Assembly: GCA_021299375.1 (NCBI GenBank) | Contig: JAJTGR010000071.1 | Coordinates: forward strand, 1 to 46,905 | Source of the DNA: Gemmatimonadota bacterium | GTDB lineage: Bacteria > Gemmatimonadota > Gemmatimonadetes > Gemmatimonadales > Gemmatimonadaceae | Direction of reading: 5' to 3' | Length of the DNA: 46,905 bases | Shown: piece by piece, positions 24,919 through 26,417 of the stretch | Position numbering within the stretch: position 1 is the first letter of the stretch | Layout of the letters: every line of letters begins with the position of its first letter | The notes under the pieces: model-generated | Database searches by the model: none | Seen by the model: the letters and a program-made list of their open reading frames with translations, nothing else | What the model was told of the DNA's origin: nothing | Position numbers and translations under genes: made by a program

Positions 24919-25794
24919 ATGGACTCGCCGTCCCGCTCTCGCGCCTCGTGGCTGCTGTCGCTGGCCATGGCGATCTCGTGCGCGCCGGCCTCGGAGCGCC
25001 CGGTGCCGGACACGGCAGGGGGCCGAACGGCCCGGACTCCCGCGACGCTCCCCGGCGACGCCGTGCGCGGACTGGCGCTGCTCACGGCATTCCGCGATTC
25101 GTTGCCCGAGCACAGCGGCAACACCCTGCGATGCACCAGCTGCCATCTGGACAACGGCACTCGGGGCACAGCCATGCCATGGCTGGGCAGCGCGGCGCGC
25201 TATCCGCGCTATCGGAGTCGCCCGGGGTACGAGGAGACCATGGAACGCCGCATCAACGAGTGCATTGCCCGGAGCCTTGCCGGGCGAATGCTCGCTGAAC
25301 GCGGACGCGACATGCAGGACATGGTCGCCTATATCGAGTCGCTTCGGCAGCGGCCCAGGCCAACGCCGGTCGATTCCGTGAAGCTTGTCGGCAAGGTGGT
25401 GCAGGGGGCTGGCGGCTACGCACAACAATGCGCGCGCTGTCACGGGAGCAACGGGGAAGGAAACCCGGCGTTGTCCGCGCCGGCCGTATGGGGACCTGAC
25501 AGCTATTCCATCGGCGCGGGCATGGCGCGGCAGTTCACGCTCGCCACGTTTCTGCGTCACAACATGCCGTTCGACCACGCCGATACGCTCAGCGACCGCG
25601 AGGCGGCTGACATCGCGGCCTACGTCTTGTCCAAACCGCGACAGGACCATCCCGGCAAGGAACGCGACTGGCCGAACGGCGACCCGCCGGCCGATGTCGC
25701 CTACGCCACGACGGCGGCGCGTGCGTCGGGCACGTCGTTGCCGCCGAAGCGCCCGGTGCTGCGTCGCCGTGTGTCCCCTGACTCCATCCGCTGA
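24919..25794 (+). CDS. Diheme c-type cytochrome resembling thiosulfate dehydrogenase TsdA
   Basis: A 291-residue exported cytochrome from ATG 24919. The N-terminus (SWLLSLAMAISCAPASE) looks like a lipoprotein or Sec signal with a possible lipidation Cys at about 21. Heme sites are CTSCH (72-76) and CARCH (171-175). Around the first heme, the pattern CHLDNGTRGTAMPWLG, YPRYRSR and RRINECIARSLAG is the TsdA type. In TsdA a Cys in the ING-C-x-x-RS motif is the axial ligand of the catalytic heme, and Cys115 sits there. Met216 in HNMPF is a candidate ligand for heme 2. TsdA couples thiosulfate to tetrathionate. A SoxA-like or other periplasmic cytochrome role is the alternative. Its stop overlaps the next gene by one base. 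Confidence 0.75.
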   Translation: MDSPSRSRASWLLSLAMAISCAPASERPVPDTAGGRTARTPATLPGDAVRGLALLTAFRDSLPEHSGNTLRCTSCHLDNGTRGTAMPWLGSAARYPRYRSRPGYEETMERRINECIARSLAGRMLAERGRDMQDMVAYIESLRQRPRPTPVDSVKLVGKVVQGAGGYAQQCARCHGSNGEGNPALSAPAVWGPDSYSIGAGMARQFTLATFLRHNMPFDHADTLSDREAADIAAYVLSKPRQDHPGKERDWPNGDPPADVAYATTAARASGTSLPPKRPVLRRRVSPDSIR

Positions 25795-26417
25795 TGACCA
25801 CGCCCCCCGAGCGCCGCCGTTTTCTCTCCCGACTCGCCGCCTGGAGCGCGAGCATGAGCCTCGTCGCTCCGCGCCTGGCCGACGCCGGCGTCCCGGTGAG
25901 GCCGAGCGTGGCCGATGACCCATGGGTCAACCGGCTGCAGGGTGCGCACCGCGTGGTGTTCCACTCGCACCTGCCCACCGATGGGTTGGCCATTCGCTGG
26001 GCGCAGACCTACCTCGACACGCAGAAGGCCCACTACGGATTCGCCGATGCGGATTCCAGTGTGCTGGTCGGCCTCAATGGCCGCTCGATCGGGTGGTTTT
26101 TCGGCAACGCCCTGTGGGCCAAGTACCCGACGATCGGGGAGGTCATGGGAGCGCCGGGGGCAAGTAACCCCCAGGTGACGCTCGTCGCCAACCTGGTGGC
26201 CCGCGGCGTGATCCTGCTGGCCTGCGGCAACTCCATCCGAGCGTCGGGCCAGCGCTTCCTGCCGGCGGCACAGCAGGGCGATGCCGCGGCACGCACCGCC
26301 TTCACCGACGAAGTGCGCGCCACGTTACTCCCCGGCATCGAGGTGGTCCCTTCCATGGTCGTCACGCTGCAACAGGCGCAGGAGCGCGGCTGCCGGTACA
26401 TCTACGCCGGCGGCTGA
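25794..26417 (+). CDS. Tat-exported DsrE/DsrF-like protein
   Basis: A 207-residue protein with a twin-arginine signal pattern (RRRFLSRLAAW) followed by a hydrophobic stretch and an Ala-rich cleavage region near residue 31. The mature part fits the DsrE-like alpha/beta fold: VVFHSHLP, a strand and loop VLVGLNGRSIGWFF, and GVILLACGNSIRASG with Cys144 where many DsrE-like proteins carry their active Cys. DsrE proteins trap or relay sulfur. Its ATG shares one base with the cytochrome stop (TGATG), so the two proteins are probably made together and may act on a shared sulfur substrate outside the cytoplasm. The substrate is unknown. Confidence 0.7.
   Translation: MTTPPERRRFLSRLAAWSASMSLVAPRLADAGVPVRPSVADDPWVNRLQGAHRVVFHSHLPTDGLAIRWAQTYLDTQKAHYGFADADSSVLVGLNGRSIGWFFGNALWAKYPTIGEVMGAPGASNPQVTLVANLVARGVILLACGNSIRASGQRFLPAAQQGDAAARTAFTDEVRATLLPGIEVVPSMVVTLQQAQERGCRYIYAGG

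Follow-up and report, generated by a model that had tools for sequence, protein, structure and literature searches.

The described systems closest to the locus reported here are the dihaem cytochrome TsdA of Allochromatium vinosum and Campylobacter jejuni, the haem-free thiosulfate dehydrogenase TSD of Acidithiobacillus ferrooxidans (AFE_0042; NF052225), the SoxAX and SoxYZ proteins, and the DsrE-type proteins, namely the DsrE3A/TusA thiosulfonate carriers of Metallosphaera cuprina, DsrEFH and TusBCD. The SoxYZ fold differs from the DsrE fold, and DsrE3A/TusA, DsrEFH and TusBCD are cytoplasmic and not known to be coupled to a cytochrome. In the A. vinosum enzyme (AvTsdA), the active-site residues are Arg109, Arg119, Cys123, Ser127 and Arg224, of which Ser127 is invariant among TsdA and missing from SoxA, according to the available part of PMC4423706. 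An Asn-Met pair at haem 2 is a feature of the C. jejuni tetrathionate reductase TsdA (PMC5146829, excerpt), and Acidithiobacillus TSD forms tetrathionate and cannot reduce ubiquinone or horse cytochrome c (excerpt of the review PMC6335251). For a DsrE-family protein it has been described that it forms a Cys-S-thiosulfonate with tetrathionate and passes it on, being unreactive with thiosulfate (PMC4175335, excerpt), and the role of a lone SoxCD in Gemmatimonadetes without other Sox enzymes is a stated open question in the available part of PMC6704655.

The window, meaning the whole analysed stretch of 46,905 nucleotides (contig JAJTGR010000071.1 of the Gemmatimonadota assembly GCA_021299375.1), encodes a TsdA-type cytochrome followed by a protein of predicted DsrE fold (Table 1). 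The two are a real, conserved pair, and there is a strong case for a functional link between them. Both open reading frames lie on the + strand and overlap by one base, and the shared base described in a first-pass annotation is confirmed: the cytochrome runs from an ATG at 24919 to a TGA at 25792-25794, whose A at 25794 is the first base of the DsrE-fold ATG. In 15 of 23 same-genus pairs, the second gene begins at -1 or -4, counted from the stop of the cytochrome gene, and the gene coupling is therefore a recurrent arrangement. A promoter and terminator scan gave weak pattern matches only. The source genome (4.48 Mb, 116 contigs) has a single TsdA-type cytochrome and three members of the DsrE-fold family, two of them away from the pair. 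From motifs, we take the upstream neighbour to be sdhB and the downstream gene on the opposite strand to be dcd. The respiratory genes around had been cited in support of the pair, and this argument did not hold: sdhB was seen beside the pair in same-genus loci only, and the sdh/nuo surroundings were therefore rejected as its explanation.

Table 1. Features of the cytochrome/DsrE-fold gene pair (positions in the window)
Feature	Position	Strand	Basis
TsdA-type dihaem c-type cytochrome gene	24919..25794	+	ORF; 291 aa
Gene for DsrE-fold protein with predicted Tat signal	25794..26417	+	ORF; 207 aa
TGATG stop/start overlap of the two genes	25792..25796	+	sequence; relatives
Haem 1 (catalytic) CTSCH, residues 72-76	25132..25146	+	sequence; His invariant in 39 + 52 homologues
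Arg101 = AvTsdA Arg109, putative thiosulfate site	25219..25221	+	alignment; role from PMC4423706 (excerpt)
Arg111 = AvTsdA Arg119	25249..25251	+	alignment; PMC4423706 (excerpt)
Cys115 = AvTsdA Cys123, putative axial ligand of catalytic haem and S-thiosulfonate site	25261..25263	+	alignment; invariant 39/39 + 52/52
Ser119 = AvTsdA Ser127	25273..25275	+	alignment; PMC4423706 (excerpt)
Haem 2 CARCH, residues 171-175	25429..25443	+	sequence; alignment
Arg204 = AvTsdA Arg224	25528..25530	+	alignment
Asn215-Met216 at haem 2 (AvTsdA Lys-Met; C. jejuni TsdA Asn-Met)	25561..25566	+	alignment; PMC5146829 (excerpt)
Twin-arginine motif RRRFL	25812..25826	+	sequence; RR in 73-74/78 family rows
Cys144, conserved DsrE-position cysteine	26223..26225	+	family alignment; common to TSD

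The cytochrome matched PF21342 (SoxA-TsdA_cyt-c) with 39.9 bits (cut-off 27) and also Cytochrom_C, and its best solved relatives are the A. vinosum TsdA chains (E about 1e-34, residues 44-242; by phmmer against 4wqc, E 7e-35 over residues 44-242). It has homology over the full catalytic length together with two CxxCH haem motifs, and C115 (in the motif RINECIARSL), R111 and S119 occupy the positions of the Cys ligand of haem 1, Arg119 and the TsdA-specific Ser127 (A. vinosum numbering). All five residues of the AvTsdA thiosulfate site are kept (R101, R111, C115, S119, R204), with Met216 at haem 2, and this complete active site bears out the TsdA pattern with Cys115 that had been noticed at first reading. 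We examined residue conservation in 39 Gemmatimonadota cytochromes and in 52 cytochromes linked to TSD genes: the two CxxCH His residues, the Cys, the Ser and the Met never vary, and the Arg119 position is Arg in 38/39 and 52/52, respectively. The Arg109 position is Arg in 39/39 Gemmatimonadota sequences and Lys in 44/52 TSD-linked ones, and the Arg224 position is conserved in Gemmatimonadota only (39/39, against 6/52 of the TSD-linked cytochromes). The protein is like TsdA of A. vinosum and C. jejuni in its two c haems, Cys-ligated catalytic haem, R/R/C/S/R site and haem-2 Met, but differs in a possible lipoprotein signal, in an Asn for the A. vinosum haem-2 Lys, and in being coupled to a gene for a DsrE-fold protein, not TsdB. 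The N-terminal signal contains a possible lipobox AISC with Cys21. When 148 Gemmatimonadota cytochromes were scored with a simple rule, 88 showed a lipobox-like pattern ahead of the domain; the AISC of this cytochrome fails that rule. Assignment as SoxA was rejected, because the SoxA model TIGR04484 gave 33 bits, under its cut-off of 110, and the TsdA-only Ser is present. The cytochrome tree has a single characterised TsdA among its references and long branches.

The second protein had been labelled DsrE-like, and this label stands for the fold but not for the Pfam family. No Pfam family matched the protein at all, and Pfam DsrE (PF02635) found nothing in it, nor in the genome at E 0.001, so that the fold had to be shown through structure; a sequence search of the PDB returned nothing up to E 5. 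The structure was predicted for the core from residue 48, the N-terminus aligning unreliably with TSDs alone. The AlphaFold core model (pLDDT 77; five-model means 77 to 44) was matched by Foldseek to 2pd2 (E 4e-5) and 1l1s (E 6e-5), and was aligned by VIA to 1l1s (Z 15.6, rmsd 1.6, 111 aligned), YchN (1jx7; Z 12.4, rmsd 2.7, 116 aligned) and DsrEFH (2hy5_C; Z 10.9, rmsd 2.3, 100 aligned), which gives the second protein of the pair a predicted DsrE/YchN fold. Cys144, in the motif LLACGNSIR, is presumably at the DsrE active position and is Cys in all 77 rows covering the site in a family alignment of 78 rows, so the cysteine that the first-pass annotation had placed there, and whose lack of conservation it had named as grounds for refutation, is a family feature. 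The protein resembles DsrE3A/TusA, DsrEFH and TusBCD in combining a DsrE fold with an active-position cysteine. The twin-arginine signal was likewise upheld as a prediction from the sequence motif: the N-terminus, ERRRFLSRL, is of Tat type, and its RR is conserved in the family alignment. As in SoxAX with SoxYZ, a Cys-ligated cytochrome of the SoxA/TsdA superfamily stands beside a single-Cys-site protein, here predicted to be periplasmic, but the cytochrome has the TsdA-only Ser, the partner has a DsrE fold, and SoxY was found in 0/32 Gemmatimonadota genomes, with 3/4 control genomes positive. A SoxYZ-type carrier was rejected for this protein, as it had no Pfam match and the SoxY model PF13501 found nothing in the source genome when positive controls were included. 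As a separate observation, one same-genus DsrE-fold protein (L026:1240-1803) seems to be without the stretch from the domain start to the W.KY motif; the accompanying cytochrome is intact.

The first-pass annotation had missed the kinship of this protein to the haem-free TSD. Of the NCBIfam models, just one matches it significantly, NF052225 (thiosulfate dehydrogenase), with 40.6 bits (E 1.7e-10), which misses the equivalog cut-off of 300 bits, and 10/10 diverse Gemmatimonadota members matched NF052225 and no other family. Identity to TSD is about 19-29%, and Cys144 aligns with the TSD Cys, which is invariant in 42/42 TSDs. With a significant sequence relation, the same predicted fold and the same conserved Cys, the protein is placed in the TSD superfamily; on sequence comparison and modelling it is a remote homologue and belongs to a sister family of the Acidithiobacillus-type TSD, a sister family because the cut-off was failed. 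It is therefore a relative of Pfam DsrE by fold and of the TSD equivalog by homology, and a member of neither. Above the cut-off were, among others, proteins of Paraburkholderia (416.8 bits) and Acidithiobacillus ferruginosus (414.7 bits). The A. ferruginosus locus has two TSD copies, 75.6% identical, with neighbours whose sequences suggest sbp, doxDA and rhodanese, and by analogy it appears to match the A. ferrooxidans AFE_0042/AFE_0050 cluster (76% identity) as described in the available part of PMC6335251. The predicted structure of the A. ferruginosus TSD (pLDDT 85) aligns to DsrE/YchN proteins, with a VIA Z of 11.9 to 2pd2; Foldseek gave nothing under E 0.001 for this model (best 1l1s, 0.014). 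Compared with A. ferrooxidans TSD, as judged from A. ferruginosus and other family sequences, the protein of the window shares the predicted Tat signal, the predicted DsrE fold, the conserved Cys and the W.KY motif, but lacks the His that follows the TSD Cys as well as the N-terminal PRRR region. For TSD, for which no cofactor requirement is reported, the DsrE-fold cysteine becomes a testable candidate active site. No description of TSD as a DsrE-fold protein or of a TsdA/Tat-DsrE pair was found among the listed titles and abstract openings of open-licence papers, which is weak evidence that both are new.

The pairing is more than a quirk of one genome. Among 26 same-genus loci fetched by the DsrE-fold protein, the cytochrome is directly upstream in 23; one of the others ends at a contig end (L014), and two are without an upstream cytochrome (L007, L013). 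In one draw of 249 Gemmatimonadota genomes of at least 90% completeness, with family matches taken to E 1e-20, the cytochrome family was present in 119 and the DsrE-fold family in 118: both in 117, the cytochrome alone in G010 and G070, DsrE alone in G207, and neither in 129, these counts ignoring phylogeny. Within two genera (g5 and g25), the families are present together or absent together. The genome survey proposed earlier thus turned out in favour of the pair, with adjacency far beyond the source genome and near-perfect co-occurrence, although adjacency outside the genus is a minority state. None of the conditions that the first-pass annotation had given for refutation was borne out, as far as a tree with one reference TsdA can show for the placement of the cytochrome. 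We took 105 further cytochrome loci (30 best hits and 75 picked from the hit list, among them one locus from the same genus, in genome G010), of which one was without a complete cytochrome; in the 104 scored, nearly all outside the genus, a DsrE gene lies on the same strand within 300 bp in 24 (about a quarter) and farther off or reversed in four, and none was seen in the examined flanks of 76, some of which end at contig ends. On a quick cytochrome tree, the paired state takes 15 changes, pairing being gained or lost, at least eight of them forced by starred branches; the tree set includes loci picked by the DsrE protein, and its pair proportion is not a frequency. The DsrE-side tree agrees on repeated changes of pairing and has the TSDs as one clade. 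Variant arrangements were also seen, such as two tandem DsrE-fold genes ahead of the cytochrome, opposite to the usual order (L027:1474-3517), and a cytochrome-DsrE pair behind which lies the gene for a rhodanese-domain adenylyltransferase of MoeB/MoeZ type (L210:3208-5229).

We give about an even chance to the reading that the pair is a two-gene periplasmic thiosulfate/tetrathionate unit, in which the cytochrome acts like TsdA and Cys144 of the DsrE-fold protein takes or hands over a thiosulfonate. By analogy with TsdA and SoxAX, the cytochrome would join thiosulfate oxidatively to Cys115, the ligand of haem 1 (PMC4423706, excerpt), and electrons would pass through haem 2 (His/Met216) to the respiratory chain. 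Cys144 would most likely take the thiosulfonate from the cytochrome or hand it over to it, as the SoxY Cys does with SoxAX, and the DsrE-fold protein would then release it as tetrathionate or pass it on. What was observed for this reading are the residues, the predicted fold, the TSD homology, the adjacency and the co-occurrence, from which we infer the protein contact, the thiosulfonate on Cys144 and the net oxidation. The exchange between Cys115 and Cys144 is proposed from the DsrE precedent in the available part of PMC4175335 together with the TsdA/SoxAX analogy, and since the DsrE protein described there does not react with thiosulfate, loading by the cytochrome would be an extrapolation. 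Repeated gain or loss of pairing, the TsdA-type cytochromes near 50 of 80 TSD loci and the soxC genes behind 25 of 79 unpaired tsdA genes (both below) also count for this reading. Against it stand the low identity to TSD with its widely missed cut-off, the 76 of 104 cytochrome loci with no DsrE gene in the examined flanks, and the TSD loci of Acidithiobacillus and most Bradyrhizobium, which have no TsdA close by; the co-occurrence, counted without regard to phylogeny, could also stem from a common lifestyle.

A less probable, though possible, reading makes the DsrE-fold protein a thiosulfate dehydrogenase in its own right, comparable to Acidithiobacillus TSD, and the cytochrome mainly its electron acceptor or a second, parallel thiosulfate dehydrogenase. 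TSD is the only significant family match of the protein, and TSD makes tetrathionate without reducing the two acceptors named above (PMC6335251, excerpt), so that its natural acceptor could be another. Furthermore, genes for TsdA-type and TsdB-like cytochromes frequently lie in one cluster with true TSD genes. We scanned contigs with a profile seeded by an alignment of three TSDs, and analysed the best 80 of 258 confirmed stretches, which are mainly from Proteobacteria and include many Burkholderia that are not independent. A TsdA-type cytochrome lies on the same strand within 4 kb in 50 of these best 80 loci (in 45 when the count is confined to the 65 loci that extend 4 kb to either side), and within 250 bp at six; cytochrome-then-TSD order, as in the window, was seen in an Acidobacteria MAG (L116) and in L125, L129 and L130. 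At least two bacterial lineages encode members of the TsdA and the TSD superfamily together. At 28 of the best 80, including Acidithiobacillus, Sulfuriferula and most Bradyrhizobium, no TsdA-type cytochrome was seen nearby, and the Acidithiobacillus and most Bradyrhizobium loci, unlike the window in this respect, indicate that some TSD works without one. Against this two-enzyme reading, the cytochrome keeps a full TsdA catalytic site, needless for a mere acceptor, and the DsrE-fold protein, at about 25% identity, lacks TSD-specific features such as a PRRR motif at the N-terminus and a His following the Cys.

Several TSD loci deserve mention in their own right. A thiosulfate cluster on a Paraburkholderia fungorum plasmid (L082:1-8426) encodes TsdB-like and TsdA-type cytochromes together with TSD, a DsrE family protein, a TlpA-like protein and two substrate-binding proteins; most of them carry no annotation beyond hypothetical or c-type cytochrome. 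On plasmids of Novosphingobium (L081:2025-4408) and Rhizobium (L083:2160-4582), a serine hydrolase (beta-lactamase-like) gene directly precedes TSD. In a Burkholderia locus (L100:8837-11014), one reading frame next to the TSD gene carries five CxxCH motifs and has the look of a TsdBA-type fusion.

For the direction of the reaction, which the first-pass annotation had read as sulfur oxidation, the sequence gives no firm answer: in place of the AvTsdA haem-2 Lys, this cytochrome has the Asn of the C. jejuni tetrathionate reductase. A pair working in reverse, as a tetrathionate (or thiosulfonate) reductase and detoxification system, with the DsrE-fold protein presenting or receiving thiosulfate, would agree with Asn215-Met216 (PMC5146829, excerpt) and with the known DsrE reaction being one with tetrathionate (PMC4175335, excerpt). 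We regard it as quite unlikely, because the same Asn is found in 52/52 TSD-linked cytochromes, beside thiosulfate dehydrogenase genes, and because soxC behind many sister tsdA genes points to oxidation. The adjacency and co-occurrence of the two families could instead reflect a shared sulfur lifestyle, the DsrE-fold protein serving another periplasmic sulfur or thiol process without contact with the cytochrome, as might be suggested by a family of up to seven copies per genome with many members away from any cytochrome and some adjacent copies 100-300 bp away, but this is very improbable in view of 117 genomes with both families against three discordant ones, the simultaneous lack of both in some genomes of genera where the two otherwise occur, an adjacency that was repeatedly gained or lost, and correlated cytochrome and DsrE distances (r = 0.64, 28 pairs, uncorrected for species history).

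Returning to the two-gene thiosulfonate unit, the soxC genes just mentioned suggest how it might extend in the phylum. Of 79 unpaired Gemmatimonadota cytochrome loci, 25 have a SoxC-like gene next (L249, L258, L263, L278 and 21 more), as against 0/25 paired loci, paired here meaning within 400 bp and the flanks being mostly shorter. The one SoxC-like gene tested gave 497 bits with TIGR04555 (cut-off 420), and a monohaem cytochrome gene follows tsdA-soxC in 22/25, the other three stretches ending before any was seen. SoxB over the cut-off was found, like SoxY, in 0/32 Gemmatimonadota genomes, with 3/4 control genomes positive; weak SoxB matches in all 30 same-genus genomes, none over the cut-off, were rejected as SoxB for this reason and are probably 5'-nucleotidase-like proteins. 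We put forward, as a rather unlikely but consequential idea, that Gemmatimonadota have a 'Sox without SoxYZ and SoxB', in which a TsdA-type cytochrome would load thiosulfate on the Cys of an exported DsrE-fold protein, this carrier would be in many members the missing partner of the orphan SoxCD whose genes lie directly behind tsdA, and TSD, from the same superfamily, would be a DsrE-type thiosulfonate protein. If true, thiosulfate oxidation would proceed on a carrier that has no kinship with SoxYZ. The repeated occurrence of soxC behind tsdA gives a context to the question on lone SoxCD in Gemmatimonadetes, as it is put in the available part of PMC6704655. A DsrE-family gene is present elsewhere in the genome in 24 of the 25 tsdA-soxC genomes, and in one genome (G025, locus L079) it lies back to back with tsdA-soxC-cytochrome.
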